Assembly: GCF_024832785.1 (NCBI RefSeq)
Contig: NZ_CP116615.1
Span: forward strand, 248,001 to 312,000
Length of the DNA: 64,000 nucleotides
Direction of reading: 5' to 3'
Origin: Fontisphaera persica
Lineage (GTDB): Bacteria; Verrucomicrobiota; Verrucomicrobiia; Limisphaerales; Fontisphaeraceae
The notes under the pieces were generated by a model, which was not told the origin of the DNA, ran no database searches, and saw only the letters and a list, made by a program, of their open reading frames with translations. The translations under genes were made by a program, and so were the position numbers. Shown here piece after piece: positions 18,337 through 25,001 of this stretch; position 1 is the stretch's first letter, and each line of letters starts with the position of its first letter.

Positions 18337-19218
18337 ATGCAAATGATAGCACACATGGCAACCCGTCGAAACGTGGCCGGGGGAATACTGGGCTGCCTGC
18401 TTTTGCTGGCCGCGGCAGGGTGGAGTGCAGATAAGGAAGTAGCCAAAGGGATTTGGCAGGTGGGCGTGATTGATCCGATTGGGTTGCGCGAGTGCTCGGG
18501 CGTGGCGGCGGTGCGCGGGCGGACCAACCTGTTTTGGATGCACAGCGACGGGCATCGCCCGGTGTTGTACCTGGTGGGGCGGGACGGTCGGGATGGACGG
18601 CAATATGTAATTGAGGGGGTTGCACTGGTGGACTGGGAAGATTTGGCAACGGATTACCGCGGACATTTATATGTGGCGGACATAGGTAACAATGAGGCGC
18701 AGCGCGTGGAGTTGGCGGTGCATCAAATTCCTGAACCAGATTTGGCGAAACCAGAATACCCGCTCCAGGTAATTCGCTCGTGGCGGCTGCGTTTTCCGGG
18801 GGCGCCTTTTGACTGCGAAAGCCTTTTCATCCATGAAGGTTATGGCTACGTCATTTCCAAGGTTTTTAATGATGCGGCGGCTGAGTTGTATCGGTTTCCC
18901 CTCCAACCGGCGGACAAACCGGTGGTATTGGAACGGCTTGGCGCTATGTCCATTACGTCACCGGTGACCGGCGCTGATATTTCCCCCGATGGACGATACC
19001 TGGGCGTGGCCGCCAAGAATGGGGTTTACCTCTTTGAGGTGCAAGGGCGTCCTGTCAATGCCATTGGAAAACCTCCCGCTGTGGCGCGATTCAAAGATCG
19101 GCATATAGAAGGCATTTGTTACACTCCTGCAGGATGGATTGTTACCGCGGAAACTCGCCACATTTTTCTATTTTCGGAGCGCGCCTTCAGCCGTCCGAAA
19201 GAGAGCAAGAAACCATAG
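18337..19218 (+). CDS. Secreted beta-propeller-like protein of unknown function
   Basis: A 293-residue protein with an N-terminal signal peptide (GGILGCLLLLAAAGWSA). Starts are possible at 18337, 18343 and 18355; I keep 18337, which has AGCAGG upstream. The mature part has repeated beta-strand segments of propeller type: LFWMHSDGHRPVLYLV, GHLYVADIGNNEAQR, GYGYVISKVF, GADISPDGRYLGVAAK and IEGICYTPAGWIVTAE. These resemble SdiA-regulated-like and NHL/YWTD-like propellers with Asp-Asn loops. No catalytic residues are obvious. It diverges from copA with only 50 bp between them, so regulation may be shared. Confidence 0.7.
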   Translation: MQMIAHMATRRNVAGGILGCLLLLAAAGWSADKEVAKGIWQVGVIDPIGLRECSGVAAVRGRTNLFWMHSDGHRPVLYLVGRDGRDGRQYVIEGVALVDWEDLATDYRGHLYVADIGNNEAQRVELAVHQIPEPDLAKPEYPLQVIRSWRLRFPGAPFDCESLFIHEGYGYVISKVFNDAAAELYRFPLQPADKPVVLERLGAMSITSPVTGADISPDGRYLGVAAKNGVYLFEVQGRPVNAIGKPPAVARFKDRHIEGICYTPAGWIVTAETRHIFLFSERAFSRPKESKKP

Positions 19219-19362: not shown

Positions 19363-19408
19363 TGTTACATTTATGTTTCCATTCCGACGTTGCACTGTAA
19401 CATTCATC
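19363..19408 (+). promoter_or_regulatory. Candidate Pho-box-like direct repeat upstream of phoU
   Basis: Two similar 13-mers, TGTTACATTTATG (19363-19375) and TGTAACATTCATC (19396-19408), lie in the 212-bp gap before phoU. Their starts are 33 bp apart, close to three helical turns, so a regulator could bind both on one DNA face. The position ahead of a phosphate operon suggests a PhoB-type operator. The rest of the gap (19219-19362) shows nothing I can name. Confidence 0.35.
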
Positions 19409-19430
19409 ACGTAAATCAACCCTCGTGTCT

Positions 19431-20555
19431 ATGCCAAGTCATTATGAAGAGACCTTGCAACGGGATATTGAACGTATCCGTGGCAAGGTCAACCAGATGG
19501 CCGGTCTGGTGGAACAAGCCCTGCGGGATGGTTTGAAGGCCCTGCAGGAGAACAACCGTCAACTGGCATACCTTGTCATCCTTCGCGACCAATCCGTGGA
19601 TGATCTGGAGCGGGAAGTGGACCGGCTGTGTCTGGAATTTCTGGTGCGCCAACAGCCGGCAGCCGGCCATTTGCGGTTTGCCTATGTGACCATCAAAATT
19701 AATCAGGAGCTGGAGCGGATTGGGGATTATGCCGAGAGCATTGCCCGGCAGATGCTCAAACTGGCGCCGTTAAAACTGGATTTTGTGATGCCGCGCCTGG
19801 CGGAGATTGCCAATCTGGCCATTCCCATGGTGCACGACGCAGTGGCGGCGTTTCTGGACCAAAACGTGGAATTGGCCCGCAAAACGCTGGAGGCCGAAGC
19901 CAGCGTCAATGCCTTGCGTGATCAATTGATTCAGGAAATCAACCGGTGGCTTTCCGACAAGCGCATTCCACTGGAGGCGCTGCATCCGCTGAGCACCATT
20001 GTGCGGCGTTACGAACGGGTATCGGACCAAAGCAAAAATATCTGCGAAGAAGTCATTTACATGGTGACCGGCGAGTACGCCAAGCATAAGACCAGCGAAA
20101 TTTTCCGGGTGCTATTCGTGGATGAGGACAATGCCTGCCTGAGCCGCATGGCGGAAGGGGTAGGGATGGCCTTGCGGCAGGATAAATTCCTATTTTCCAG
20201 CGCCGGGTTGAATCCGCAGCCCATTTCCGAAGCGACCGCGCGCTTTTTTGCCGAGAAAAACCTGCCCATCGTGCGCCAGACGCCGGTGTCCTTGGCGCAT
20301 GTGCCGAATCTCGAATACTACCAGGTGGTGGTGACTTTTACCCCGCAAGCCCGGGCGGCATTGAGCCGTTTGCCGGCCAAGGTGGTGGTGTTTGAGTGGT
20401 TGTTGGACAACCCGGCCAAAGCCGCAGGGTCAGAAGCGGAGGTGCGGGCGGCCTACGAAGCGGCCTATCAATATGTGGATGTGCACGTGCGCGATTTGAT
20501 GCAGGCCATCCTGGGCCATGAGATTTCTTCCGGGACGGAAGCGAAACCGGTGTGA
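19431..20555 (+). CDS. phoU: PhoU-type phosphate regulator fused to an inactivated LMW-phosphatase/ArsC-like domain
   Basis: A 374-residue protein. Residues 1-215 are two PhoU three-helix repeats (ERIRGKVNQMAGLVEQAL, KINQELERIGDYAESIARQ, VRRYERVSDQSKNICEEV) carrying the E/DxxxD metal-cluster pattern. Residues about 225-365 resemble low-molecular-weight tyrosine phosphatase/ArsC proteins: LFV (228-230), a P-loop position, MAEG (240-243), SSAGL (256-260) and a late DNP (326-328). In the P-loop the nucleophile Cys is Asp231 and the Arg is Leu237, so catalysis is unlikely. PhoU normally restrains the phosphate two-component system and Pst transporter; the extra domain may sense an anion. First gene of the pst operon. 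ATG at 19431 is chosen over a GTG at 19425. Confidence 0.88.
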   Translation: MPSHYEETLQRDIERIRGKVNQMAGLVEQALRDGLKALQENNRQLAYLVILRDQSVDDLEREVDRLCLEFLVRQQPAAGHLRFAYVTIKINQELERIGDYAESIARQMLKLAPLKLDFVMPRLAEIANLAIPMVHDAVAAFLDQNVELARKTLEAEASVNALRDQLIQEINRWLSDKRIPLEALHPLSTIVRRYERVSDQSKNICEEVIYMVTGEYAKHKTSEIFRVLFVDEDNACLSRMAEGVGMALRQDKFLFSSAGLNPQPISEATARFFAEKNLPIVRQTPVSLAHVPNLEYYQVVVTFTPQARAALSRLPAKVVVFEWLLDNPAKAAGSEAEVRAAYEAAYQYVDVHVRDLMQAILGHEISSGTEAKPV

Positions 20556-20593
20556 ACCACAATAACCAAATGATTCAATAGAAAAGATTGCGT

Positions 20594-21508
20594 ATGAAAT
20601 ATATCAACCTCAAAGCAGGCGTGGTGAGTGCATTGCTGGGCGTGGCTGTAGCTGCGTTCTGGGGCACGGGTTGCAAACCGTCGGGTTCGGGGGGCAGCGG
20701 GAGCGGCGGCGGGCGCGCCACCATTATTCAAAACCGTGGCTCGGATACGATGGTGAATCTGGCCCAAGCCTGGGCGGAGGCATACAGCAAAGCCCATCCT
20801 GAGGTGAAGGTGGAAGTCGGGGGCGGTGGTTCGGGGGTGGGCCTTGCCGCGCTCATCAGGGGGACGGTGGACATCGCCAATTCCAGCCGGGACATCAAAC
20901 CGTCGGAAGTTGAACAAATGAAGAAGAACACCGGCAAGGAGCCCAAGGAGTTTACCGTGGGCTATGATGCGCTGGCGATTTTTGTGCATCGCAACAATCC
21001 CCTGGACAACATCACCACCGAGCAACTGGCGCAGATTTACATGGAGGGGGGGAAGATTACCAAGTGGTCGCAATTGGGAGTGACCCTGCCGGGCGGCGGC
21101 GATGACATCGTGCGGGTGAGCCGCCAGTCCAGCTCGGGCACGTACGAGTTTTTCCGCGAGCACGTTCTTAAAAACAAAGATTTCAAACTGGGGTCCCGGG
21201 ATATGAATGGCTCGAAGGAGGTGGTGGAGCTGGTGGGCAATACACCGACGGCCATTGGTTACAGCGGCATGGGGTATGCCACCGACAAGGTGAAAATGCT
21301 CAAGGTGGACGGGGTGCCGCCGACGGTGGAAACGACGATGAACCGCACCTATCCGATTGCCCGTGCCCTGCATTTATACACCTTGGGCGAGCCTACGGGC
21401 GCGGTGAAAGATTATATCGAGTGGATTCTGAGTGAGCCAGGACAGACCCTGGTGCAAAAGACGGGCTATGTGCCCATCCCCAAGGATAAATGGCATAAGA
21501 AACCTTAA
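20594..21508 (+). CDS. pstS: Phosphate ABC transporter substrate-binding lipoprotein PstS
   Basis: A 304-residue protein starting at the ATG at 20594 with GAAAAG upstream. The signal sequence ends in a lipobox-like GTGC, followed by a Gly/Ser linker, so it should be lipid-anchored. Phosphate-binding segments are visible: GSDTM near the N-terminus, GGGSGVGLAALIRGTVDIANSSR and SRQSSSGTYEFF. PstS captures phosphate outside the inner membrane and delivers it to PstCA. It lies 38 bp after phoU. Confidence 0.94.
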   Translation: MKYINLKAGVVSALLGVAVAAFWGTGCKPSGSGGSGSGGGRATIIQNRGSDTMVNLAQAWAEAYSKAHPEVKVEVGGGGSGVGLAALIRGTVDIANSSRDIKPSEVEQMKKNTGKEPKEFTVGYDALAIFVHRNNPLDNITTEQLAQIYMEGGKITKWSQLGVTLPGGGDDIVRVSRQSSSGTYEFFREHVLKNKDFKLGSRDMNGSKEVVELVGNTPTAIGYSGMGYATDKVKMLKVDGVPPTVETTMNRTYPIARALHLYTLGEPTGAVKDYIEWILSEPGQTLVQKTGYVPIPKDKWHKKP

Positions 21509-21546: not shown

Positions 21547-22479
21547 ATGGAAGCATCAGCCCGTGCAACGGCTCAGCGGCGTCCGACTCGTCCCGCGTGG
21601 GCCATTTATGGTGAGAAAGCGCTGGAATGGGTCATCCGCGTGGCGGGGGTCAGCGCCATCATTTTCGTGCTGGCCATCTTTTTCTTTGTATTCCGGGAGG
21701 CGGCGCCCATCCTGGTCAGCAAAGACTTCAGCCTGACCGAGTTCTTGTTCAGCACGGAATGGTATCCCACCTCGGCGGTGAATGTGCGTTACGGCACGCT
21801 TGCGCTGACGGTGGGAACCTTCAGTGTGACCATTCTGGCGATGGTCATCGCGGTGCCGTTTGGACTGGGCGGGGCGATTTTTGTCAGCGAGTTCTGCGGG
21901 CCTAAAACGAGGGAGGCGCTCAAGATTATCATTGAACTGCTGGCGGCGATTCCCAGCGTGGTCTGGGGATTCATTGGCCTGACGGTGATGAGCAAAATCA
22001 TCATGAAACTGACCGGGGCGCCGGTGGGGGTCAACATGCTCAACGGGGCCATCATTCTGGCGCTGATGAGTGTGCCCATTATTGTTTCCATTGGTGAGGA
22101 CGCGCTGAAGGCGGTGCCAGACAGTTACCGTGAGGCGGGTTTGGCGCTGGGGGCGACGCAGTGGCAACTGGTGTATCGGGTGCTGATTCCGGCCGCCAAA
22201 AACGGGTTGTTGGCAGCGGTGCTGCTGGGCGTAGGCCGGGCGGTGGGCGAGACCATGGCGGTGCTCATGGCGACGGGGCACGCGGTGCATATTCCCACCA
22301 GCATCCTGGATTCGGTGCGCACGCTGACCGCCAACATTGCGGCGGAACTGGGCGAGGCGCCGGCCGGGTCGCCGCACTACCGGGTGCTGTTTCTTACCGG
22401 GGTGTTGCTGTTCAGCATTACTTTCGTCGTCAACCTGGCCGCGGACCTGGTCGTGCGCGGCATTCGCAAGAAAGGCTGA
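21547..22479 (+). CDS. pstC: Phosphate ABC transporter permease PstC
   Basis: A 310-residue permease with about six membrane helices. The EAA loop typical of Pst permeases is EDALKAVPDSYREAGLALGA, followed by the family's RVLIPAAKNGLLAAVLLGVGRAVGET-type segment. It forms the membrane channel with PstA. The stop overlaps the start of pstA (TGATG). Confidence 0.94.
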   Translation: MEASARATAQRRPTRPAWAIYGEKALEWVIRVAGVSAIIFVLAIFFFVFREAAPILVSKDFSLTEFLFSTEWYPTSAVNVRYGTLALTVGTFSVTILAMVIAVPFGLGGAIFVSEFCGPKTREALKIIIELLAAIPSVVWGFIGLTVMSKIIMKLTGAPVGVNMLNGAIILALMSVPIIVSIGEDALKAVPDSYREAGLALGATQWQLVYRVLIPAAKNGLLAAVLLGVGRAVGETMAVLMATGHAVHIPTSILDSVRTLTANIAAELGEAPAGSPHYRVLFLTGVLLFSITFVVNLAADLVVRGIRKKG

Positions 22480-23438
22480 TGGGCATGGCTGACACAACTG
22501 CCAATCTCAAATCGGATGCAAAAGCGGCGCCCGCGCCATTGGCGGTGGACCAACTTTTCACCGAGACACCCCTGGTGCGGGAGAAGCTGCGCAGGCAGAA
22601 GATTGCCAAGGTCATTTTTGGCGCCATGTCGGTGGGCATGATTCTGCCCCTGCTGCTGATTATTGGGTACCTGGTGGAGCGGGCCTGGCCGTCGTTGAGC
22701 CTGGAGTTTTTGTTGGATGTGCCGCGGGCAGGGATGACCGAGGGCGGCATCTGGTCAGCGCTGGTGGGCACGATTTATCTGGTCATCATCTCGCTGGCGG
22801 TATCGGCGCCCATCGGCATCATGGCGGCCATTTACCTGAATGAGTACGCGAAAGACAACTGGTTCAACCGCATCATCAACCTGGCGGTCATCAATCTGGC
22901 CGGGGTGCCGAGCATTGTGCATGCGCTTTTTGGGCTGGGCGCTTTTGTGTACGCGGCGCAGATGGGGCTTTCCATCATGGCGGCGTCGCTGACGCTGGCC
23001 ATCATGACGCTGCCGGTGATTATTGCCAGCACCCGCGAGGCGCTGGCGTCGGTGCCCATGGCGTTTCGCGAGGCCTGCTGGAACGTGGGCGCCACCCGCT
23101 GGCAGACAATCAAGTCCATTGTGCTGCCCAACTCGATTAGCGGCATTTTGACCGGCGTGATTTTGCAGGTCAGCCGCGCGGCAGGCGAGACGGCGCCCAT
23201 CATGTTCACGGGGGTGGCCTTCTACAAGGCAGTGGAGCGGGGCACCTTGTTTCCCTATTACCTCAACGAGCAGTGCATGGCGCTGTCCATGCACCTGTAC
23301 ACCTTGTCCACGCAGGTGCCGGACGTGAAGGAGTCCATGCAATTCGCCACTGCGGTGGTGTTGCTGGGAGCGGTGTTGCTGGTCAACGCCACCGCCATTG
23401 TCCTGCGGGTCTATTTGCGTTCGCGGAAAAAATGGTAA
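22479..23438 (+). CDS. pstA: Phosphate ABC transporter permease PstA
   Basis: A 319-residue permease beginning at the ATG at 22479, which overlaps the pstC stop; a second ATG lies at 22485. A cytoplasmic N-terminal tail of about 45 residues precedes six membrane helices. The EAA loop reads TREALASVPMAFREACWNVGA and is followed by SRAAGETAPIMFTG, both PstA hallmarks. It pairs with PstC. Confidence 0.94.
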   Translation: MGMADTTANLKSDAKAAPAPLAVDQLFTETPLVREKLRRQKIAKVIFGAMSVGMILPLLLIIGYLVERAWPSLSLEFLLDVPRAGMTEGGIWSALVGTIYLVIISLAVSAPIGIMAAIYLNEYAKDNWFNRIINLAVINLAGVPSIVHALFGLGAFVYAAQMGLSIMAASLTLAIMTLPVIIASTREALASVPMAFREACWNVGATRWQTIKSIVLPNSISGILTGVILQVSRAAGETAPIMFTGVAFYKAVERGTLFPYYLNEQCMALSMHLYTLSTQVPDVKESMQFATAVVLLGAVLLVNATAIVLRVYLRSRKKW

Positions 23439-23451
23439 CCCTCTGGAACTT

Positions 23452-24219
23452 GTGAGCGAGTCTCGAACCCAACGTGTCGAAGTACAGGACCTCCGGCTGT
23501 CCTACGGCAAGAAGGAGGTCATTCACGGCATCTCCTTCGATATTTACGAGCGGGAAATCCTGGGCATCATCGGCCCCGCGCAATCGGGCAAAACCTCGTT
23601 GCTGCGCTGCCTCAACCGCACCATTGATTTCGTGGCCAGCGCGCATGTGAGCGGCACCATCAAGGTGGATGGGGAGGATGTGCGCAAGGTGCGCGACATT
23701 TACGCGCTGCGGCGCAAGATTGGCATGGTGGCCCCCCTGCCGGTGGGGCTGCCGCTGAGCATCTATGATAATGTGGCTTTTGCCCCGCGCTGCGCCGGCT
23801 TGACCAATAAATCCGAGCTGGATGCCATGGTGGAAAAATGCCTGCGTCAGGCGGCGTTGTGGGATGAGGTGAAGGACCGGTTGGACAGCCTGGGCACCAA
23901 GCTTTCCGGCGGCCAGCAGCAGCGGCTGACCATTGCCCGCGCGTTGTCGCACCAGCCGGAAATTTTGTGCCTGGACGAATTTTCCATCGCGATTGACCCG
24001 GTGACCACCATGCGCATCGAGGAGGTGCTCAAGGAATTGCGCAAGGAAATCACCATCATCCTGGTCACCAACCTGACCCAGCAGGCCCGGCGGCTGGCCG
24101 ACCGCACCATGTTCTTGTGGAATGGTGAAATCGTCGAGCTGGACCGTAATGAGGTCATCTTTTCGGACCGGCCGGCCAATCGCAAAACCTACGACTATAT
24201 CAACGGAGTTTTTGGATGA
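23452..24219 (+). CDS. pstB: PstB-like phosphate transporter ATPase, copy 1 (Q-loop and switch-His lost)
   Basis: A 255-residue PstB homologue. I start it at GTG 23452 (MSESRTQRVEV); a TTG one codon earlier and a start within pstA are possible. Walker A is GPAQSGKT (41-48), the signature LSGGQ (151-155) is intact, and Walker B is CLDEF (173-177) instead of LDEP. The Q-loop Gln of the usual MVFQ motif is absent (MVAP, 92-95), and the switch His of VTHN is Asn207 (VTNL). It would bind ATP and supply a good signature motif but should hydrolyse poorly at its own site. Its stop overlaps the next pstB (ATGA), which has the complementary loss. Confidence 0.9.
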   Translation: MSESRTQRVEVQDLRLSYGKKEVIHGISFDIYEREILGIIGPAQSGKTSLLRCLNRTIDFVASAHVSGTIKVDGEDVRKVRDIYALRRKIGMVAPLPVGLPLSIYDNVAFAPRCAGLTNKSELDAMVEKCLRQAALWDEVKDRLDSLGTKLSGGQQQRLTIARALSHQPEILCLDEFSIAIDPVTTMRIEEVLKELRKEITIILVTNLTQQARRLADRTMFLWNGEIVELDRNEVIFSDRPANRKTYDYINGVFG

Positions 24220-25001
24220 GCGCCGAGGTTACCAGCAGCCCCTACAGCATCACCACGCGCAACCTGAATTTGTGGTACGCCAAGTTTCAGGCATTGATTA
24301 ACGTCAACGTGGACATCAAGCATGGCATCATCACCTCGTTGATTGGCCCGTCCGGCTGCGGCAAGACCACCTTGTTGCGCTGCTTCAACCGGGTCAATGA
24401 ACGGTATGGGTATGTGACCACCACGGGCGAGATTAAGGTGCTGGGCAAGAACATTTACGATCCCGATGTGTCGCTGGTGGAGCTGCGCAAGTCAGTGGGC
24501 ATGGTGTTTCAGCGGCCCAATCCGCTGCCCATCAGCGTGTATGAAAATGTGGTCTTCGGTCTGCGTATTCATCTCCCCGTGGAGCAACTGACCCGCTCGC
24601 TGCTGGACGAGGCCGTGGAAAAGGCGTTGACGGAGGTGGGGCTATGGAAGGACCTCAAAGACCGCCTGGACCACAAAGCCACCAGTCTGCAATTGGAGCA
24701 GCAACAGAAGCTTTGCATTGCCCGCCTGCTGCCCCTCAAACCGGAAATTATTCTGATGGACGAGCCGTGCTCGGCGCTGGACGTGGAGGGGACCCGGGCG
24801 ATTGAGGAATTGATGTTCACCCTGCGCGGGCGGTACACCATTGTCATTGTGACCCACAACATGATGCAGGCCCGCCGTGCCAGCGACGAGTGCATCTTCA
24901 TGCTCATGGGCGAATTGGTGGAGCATGGCCGCACGGAGCAGGTGTTCCTCAATCCCAAAAATCCCAAGACCGCCGAGTACATTGAAGGCCGGTACGGTTG
25001 A
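24216..25001 (+). CDS. pstB: PstB-like phosphate transporter ATPase, copy 2 (signature motif lost)
   Basis: A 261-residue PstB homologue with canonical Walker A GPSGCGKT (44-51), Q-loop Gln99 in MVFQRPNP, Walker B LMDEP (180-184) and switch His214 in VTHN. The ABC signature is degenerate: LQLEQ (158-162) where LSGGQ is expected, although the following QQKLCIARLL is preserved. Its Walker motifs would need the intact signature of copy 1 to form a working ATP site, which argues for a heterodimer. Last gene of the operon; the convergent subtilase gene begins 18 bp further on. Confidence 0.92.
   Translation: MSAEVTSSPYSITTRNLNLWYAKFQALINVNVDIKHGIITSLIGPSGCGKTTLLRCFNRVNERYGYVTTTGEIKVLGKNIYDPDVSLVELRKSVGMVFQRPNPLPISVYENVVFGLRIHLPVEQLTRSLLDEAVEKALTEVGLWKDLKDRLDHKATSLQLEQQQKLCIARLLPLKPEIILMDEPCSALDVEGTRAIEELMFTLRGRYTIVIVTHNMMQARRASDECIFMLMGELVEHGRTEQVFLNPKNPKTAEYIEGRYG

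Follow-up and report, generated by a model that had tools for sequence, protein, structure and literature searches.

In enteric bacteria PhoU is described as bridging PstB and PhoR, and the PhoU changes within PstSCAB-PhoU-PhoR that control signalling are described in the same source as still unclear (PMC9239213). Some Pst importers have two pstB genes. PstBA and PstBB of B. subtilis are assigned to one Pst importer (PMC11466899), and the paired PstB1 and PstB2 of E. faecalis are described with all motifs present (PMC12096839). ABC proteins with a degenerate ATP site have been reviewed for heterodimeric exporters (PMC7756269); among importers, RbsA and NupO are reported examples (PMC11466899). 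Phosphatase domains that have lost catalysis are described among eukaryotic receptor phosphatases: the dead D2 domain of RPTP-gamma occludes D1 (PMC2638020), and PTPRU binds substrates without catalysis (PMC7320164).

The window analysed here is a 64,000-nucleotide stretch of the Fontisphaera persica genome (NZ_CP116615.1, positions 248,001 to 312,000). It carries a phoU gene, designated phoU*, whose product continues into a domain of the ArsC/LMW-PTP fold, and the genes of a phosphate importer:

19363..19379, + strand: PhoB-box-like repeat TGTTAC-n5-TGTTTC, one mismatch to TGTNAC-n5-TGTNAC
19431..20555, + strand: phoU*, PhoU plus ArsC-fold pseudoenzyme domain, 374 aa (translation, TIGR02135, AlphaFold, Foldseek)
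19431..20084, + strand: PhoU half, residues 1-218, six helices (TIGR02135, model, Foldseek)
20097..20513, + strand: ArsC/LMW-PTP-fold domain, residues 223-361 (PDB sequence matches, Foldseek, VIA-align)
20121..20141, + strand: P-loop remnant D231-E-D-N-A-C-L237 (translation, homologue alignment)
20588..21508, + strand: pstS, phosphate-binding protein, PBP_like_2 (family search)
21547..22479, + strand: pstC permease (family search, locus map)
22479..23438, + strand: pstA permease (start picked by eye within a longer frame)
23398..24219, + strand: pstB1 ATPase, Q-loop Gln replaced by Pro, H-loop His by Asn, LSGGQ intact (start uncertain)
24216..25001, + strand: pstB2 ATPase, LSGGQ replaced by LQLEQ; Walker A/B, Q-loop and H-loop intact

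The gene order is phoU*-pstS-pstC-pstA-pstB1-pstB2. With PstS, PstC, PstA and PstB encoded in one operon, the locus qualifies as a Pst phosphate importer, although both window PstB proteins (282.1 and 327) fall below the TIGR00972 cut-off of 343.2. All six genes occur in this order in 48 of 64 non-duplicate fusion loci, including L091, where pstB2 is in two pieces, and L129, where only the start of pstB2 is present at the contig end. Fifteen of the 64 hit a contig end no more than 532 bases past the last gene found, and L125 is the one locus that does not fit, its order breaking after pstC. The original prediction had placed the gene first in a pst operon with divergent ATPases, and the reading frames, family matches and locus maps all agree with it.

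The window genome has a canonical pstS-C-A-B-phoU-phoB-phoR cluster elsewhere (phoB and phoR named by eye), which encodes a normal PstB. There phoU follows pstB, whereas phoU* opens its operon. A further match to the window protein (E 1e-10 or better) is present in 48 of the 61 fusion genomes of the order sample. No ars genes were noticed beside the window operon, the flanks of which lay outside the family search; upstream of phoU* is a gene for a 293-aa protein (18337-19218, same strand).

Of the 64 regions upstream of the fusion gene, 22 contain the repeat TGTNA-n6-TGTNA on one strand or the other, the window not among them: 14 have it on the gene's strand, 14 on the opposite strand and 6 on both. 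About 0.4 regions are expected from Markov resampling, and ten other spacings gave 0 to 3 regions, so the enrichment is confined to the 11-bp period. From the E. coli Pho box, we take this repeat to be a probable PhoB box. The operon encodes a second Pst importer, probably under PhoB control.

The segment 19431-20552 translates into 374 residues, including D231, C236 and L237. GTG at 19425 is a further possible start in the same open frame; three homologues start at the residue equivalent to 19431. The protein belongs to the PhoU family, scoring 159 bits against TIGR02135 (cut-off 130.25), and shares with known PhoU proteins (1t72, 4q25) the six-helix fold and both ERxxD motifs (E95-D99 and E195-D199). 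The additional C-terminal ArsC-fold domain sets it apart from them. By analogy, we infer that the PhoU half would bind PstB and PhoR and repress Pho signalling.

In sequence, the C-terminal part resembles thioredoxin-type arsenate reductases, though the similarity is low. TIGR02691 (arsenate reductase) gives 44.9 bits (E 1.3e-11) against a far higher cut-off of 174.3. Pfam LMWPc scores 13.0 bits on the whole window protein and 15.3 on the domain alone; its cut-off of 23.2 is passed by the homologues L006 (38.4) and L005 (31.6) but not by L007 (19.4). The closest PDB sequences, 8p5n (E 5.4e-6) and 1jl3 (E 6.7e-6), are both ArsC. AlphaFold, run on the window protein with three homologues alongside, produced a full-length model (mean pLDDT 86.6) in which a domain of alternating strands and helices comes after the six helices of PhoU. 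Foldseek matched the same chain to PhoU 1t72 (TM 0.92) and to ArsC 1jl3 (TM 0.86, both by target). Modelled separately, the domain reached pLDDT 89.2, and VIA-align superposed it on B. subtilis ArsC 1jl3 with Z 19.8 over 137 residues at 2.0 A.

These structure matches rule out a chance hit or a wrong fold. Fold and sequence kinship together place the domain in the LMW-PTP/ArsC superfamily, as the original prediction had it for this PhoU fusion; an unrelated predicted fold, named there as grounds for rejecting that claim, was not obtained. The domain descends from a thioredoxin-type ArsC and has lost the catalytic cysteines. Like ArsC proteins (1jl3, 1ljl, 8p5n), it has the fold and, in most rows, the SAG motif and the late DP motif; unlike them, it lacks the nucleophile Cys and the redox pair, has often lost the Arg and is joined to PhoU.

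The state of the catalytic residues was followed through 65 non-duplicate rows including the window (L006 and L007 were left out as same-contig duplicates of L096 and L107). The nucleophile position holds Asp in 62 rows, Glu in 2, Gly in 1 and Cys in none; with duplicates counted, Asp 64, Glu 2 and Gly 1 (n=67). The P-loop Arg is present in 26 rows and absent in 39, while the second P-loop Cys is retained in 39. In the window protein the nucleophile has become Asp231 and the Arg Leu237, just as predicted from the translation, and the second Cys is kept. With D231, L237, T304 and L311 at the ArsC sites, this protein does not have the residues of an arsenate reductase, and the absence of the nucleophile from all 65 rows leaves no Cx5R loop of the LMW protein tyrosine phosphatase kind. 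A comparison of 62 fusions (three rows with a domain shorter than 110 residues dropped) with 26 ArsC-like relatives (L008, which carries Asp, omitted) gave the nucleophile Cys in 26/26 relatives and 0/62 fusions, and the two ArsC redox cysteines in 25/26 and 24/26 relatives against 1/62 and 0/62 fusions; the Arg persists in 25 of the 62. As both the nucleophile and the redox cysteines have been lost family-wide, catalysis by the domain is very unlikely, and an active arsenate reductase or phosphatase is ruled out on sequence.

Could the window copy be a recently mutated member of an otherwise active group of fusions? An intact Cys-x5-Arg loop in close homologues was to be the sign of such a lone mutant, and it is present in none of the 65 non-duplicate homologues, window included. 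The fused domains moreover group apart from the Cys-keeping relatives. Since we found nothing in support of recent mutation, and the sampled genomes refute it, we give this explanation next to no credence.

The replaced positions have had different histories. On a family tree that left out the P-loop columns (the trees were of a quick kind), 1 change suffices for the acidic state at 231, and the retention or loss of the Arg takes 10. Counted per column, 3 changes fall at position 231, one of the best conserved (tied at ranks 8-12 among 132 columns), and 20 at position 237 (rank 74; median 17.5). An acid so fixed, unlike the mere drift of a dead site, reads as selected. Because the catalytic Cys has given way to an acidic residue throughout the family, the domain has the look of a conserved auxiliary part of the PhoU regulator, not of a broken enzyme. 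As the original prediction proposed, it has probably turned regulatory; the trait runs through the family and looks selected. In a single same-genus pair, where dS is near saturation, dN and dS are 0.068 and 1.59 for the domain and 0.048 and 0.99 for the PhoU half; judged from this pair, both parts are under purifying selection. Mean column entropy in the 65 rows is higher in the domain (1.86) than in the PhoU half (1.41), meaning that the domain is conserved less and would have a subsidiary role at best.

The fixed acid could itself be the working residue: phosphorylated or metal-binding at the end of strand 1, it would make the domain act as a switch, much like a receiver domain, where a dock would be passive. 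The acid is kept in 64/65 rows while the pocket Arg and the second Cys decay, and Asn234 (54/65) and Ser238 (59/65) of the old P-loop are largely kept. At the same time, the Arg needed to hold a phosphoryl group is missing in 39 rows, positions 232 and 233 beside the acid are variable throughout the 65 and provide no fixed second acid, and we know of no kinase partner. Such a switch seems unlikely to us, if worth keeping in mind.

An anion sensor, also put forward in the original prediction, fares worse. Members that keep the Arg would weakly bind phosphate, arsenate or polyphosphate and report to the PhoU half, which suits the phosphate uptake setting and the 26 rows concerned. The carboxylate, however, occupies the very spot at which an anion would come up against the nucleophile, which argues against oxyanion binding; the Arg column evolves at the pace of an average column, and the window protein itself has Leu237. 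As a general explanation we regard anion sensing as improbable. With the acid in 64/65 rows and the Arg absent in 39/65, sensing through the P-loop is unlikely in most members and conceivable in the 26 with Arg.

Another reading sees the domain as a structural appendix, there only to stabilise or dimerise PhoU without passing on any signal. A241, F255, W323 and S257-A258-G259, which are among its most conserved positions, do look structural. A role confined to the core leaves the fixed charge at 231 unexplained, though, and of the positions that the fusions conserve but ArsC relatives do not share (F255, K276, P292 and E343) the last three also speak against it. We therefore consider a purely structural part rather unlikely.

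A survey for the same fusion found it in at least 61 of 293 genomes of the order sample (counting matches that extend past residue 260; G587 is clipped by a contig end and G622 starts at residue 43). In the phylum sample, at least 4 of 387 genomes have a fusion recognised among the 30 matches with loci: the window's own genome and three from elsewhere in the phylum. Beyond the phylum, the distribution comes from a short-peptide scan of named genomes, which added L005, L006 and L007 (the last two on the contigs of L096 and L107), and from a plasmid search, in which 81 records matched, all below 60% identity and none reaching 80% query coverage. One fusion is in a record titled Acidobacteria (title only).

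In a quick tree of few columns, the 62 fused domains are split from 27 other ArsC-like domains (L013-L038 and L008) by one branch with support 100. With all fused domains on one side of it, the fusion probably arose once. L039, L040 and L041 come from outside the window's class, yet are placed within the order's fusions, on a tree where several forks are weak; this placement suggests horizontal transfer of the operon to these genomes. Among the matches listed from the open-licence literature, neither a PhoU-ArsC fusion nor an asymmetric PstB pair appears in any title or abstract start, which does not imply absence from print.

ArsC-like domains were also seen in other arrangements. In a Bacillota record (L008:7995-9815) such a domain is N-terminal to a PAS/sigma-54 activator/Fis-HTH regulator and has the same Cys to Asp change as the fusions, plus Arg to Ala; the adjoining ORF presumably encodes a hybrid cluster protein, which it resembles. 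Long frames with a Cys-keeping ArsC-like domain near the start occur in L013, L015, L016 and L038. The Arg is replaced in L015 and L038, and the L015 frame reads as the same kind of regulator as L008. L035 has two tandem ArsC-like domains within one open frame.

The two ATPases of the operon differ in a complementary way. In the 64 fusion loci, PstB matches were counted if they reached 58% identity over 200 residues. All 50 PstB1 proteins so counted have LSGGQ intact, with Pro in place of the Q-loop Gln and Asn in place of the H-loop His; all 46 PstB2 proteins lack LSGGQ (LQLEQ in 43, LLLEQ in 2, LQLDQ in 1) and retain the Q-loop Gln and the H-loop His. Without the identity limit, some exceptions appear (PstB1 with the H-loop His in 3/56, PstB2 with LSGGQ in 6/55), and all are wrong picks: in L110, L123 and L124 the contig's sole PstB is part of a different pst cluster and was miscounted as both PstB1 and PstB2, and in L077, L086 and L129, where PstB2 is cut short, PstB1 was taken in its place. 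Each ATP site of an ABC pair brings together one protein's Walker side and its partner's signature. The complete site would therefore combine the Walker side of PstB2 with the signature of PstB1, leaving the other degenerate, so that the pair is predicted to have one consensus and one degenerate ATP site.

Such complementary loss is, at the level of sequence, what is found in heterodimeric ABC ATPases with one degenerate site. In the systems described so far under that heading, as far as the cited accounts go, the likeness is one consensus plus one degenerate site; here the protein is a phosphate importer and the halves lie on separate PstB proteins. With the B. subtilis and E. faecalis pairs it shares two pstB genes per Pst importer, but compared with the E. 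faecalis pair, reported to have all motifs, each PstB here is without what its partner keeps.

A coupled change of the fusion and the divergent ATPases had been thought plausible. In the order sample (n=293) both traits occur in 53 genomes, the fusion only in 8, the ATPase type only in 6 and neither in 226; these genomes are related, so a Fisher value for the association overstates independence. Thus 53/59 PstB1-type genomes are fused, and in all 8 fusion-only genomes the contig stops before pstB1. The association is strong, but strict coupling is ruled out: a plain PhoU accompanies the asymmetric pair in L136 and L137, where it lies 3' of the operon, and in L138, L140 and L142, where it is divergent, which amounts to 2/6 PstB1-type genomes of the phylum sample and 3/6 fusion-less ones of the order sample. 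The two traits are therefore separable, and the pair does not require the fusion. The remaining fusion-less loci of the order sample are L141, which runs off the contig, and L139 and L143, in whose fetched stretches no PhoU is seen. The divergent case is L143: its PstB2, of signature LSLEQ, is only 52% identical, and the motif patterns matched neither the Q-loop of its PstB1 nor the H-loop of its PstB2. In L138 (6648-7298), L140 (6423-7193) and L142 (227-1003), pstB2 is followed by a third frame that resembles an ABC ATPase.

A selected non-catalytic role, docking or switch, is most likely for the domain. As our best explanation, which we believe to have about an even chance of being right, we propose that PhoU* is the dedicated PhoU of the second Pst importer and that its domain is a non-catalytic docking or switch module. 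The PhoU half would dock on the transporter ATPases, as PhoU does in other bacteria; the domain, its nucleophile replaced by a fixed carboxylate, would make a second contact, either with the asymmetric PstB1/PstB2 pair or with a signalling partner (PhoR, for instance), and this contact would help to set when import is allowed or reported. Computation supplies the fold, the kinship, the lost catalytic residues, the conserved acid, the operon and the motif asymmetry of the ATPases; docking, partner and direction of effect are what we infer here, binding of the domain to the transporter being plausible. Asp231 may serve in a contact, cap the structure, bind a metal or be a phosphoacceptor. The existence of the PstB pair without the domain and the persistence of the Arg in 26/65 rows count against this proposal. 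The receptor phosphatases, according to the accounts cited, likewise use a dead or near-dead phosphatase fold in protein binding; being eukaryotic, of another PTP class, with other partners and often a retained Cys, they are an analogy for how the domain may work and nothing closer.

More speculatively, and doubtful as it is, the pseudo-ArsC domain might recognise one particular ATPase or a signalling kinase, with import and signalling gated at separate sites of an asymmetric complex. If true, this would be a sided Pst system, in which one ATP site works, the other is degenerate and PhoU has a second, acid-fixed domain.

The picture that emerges is of a second Pst system whose ATPases are complementary and whose PhoU carries a conserved pseudo-ArsC domain. 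A curated model alone would annotate the phoU* product simply as PhoU, and its C-terminal tail could be mistaken for an arsenate reductase. The domain is a clear bacterial pseudoenzyme, in which the nucleophile position became a fixed acid instead of drifting after catalysis was lost. With ATPases that can be told apart and an extra PhoU domain that can be removed, the family offers a natural handle on PhoU control.
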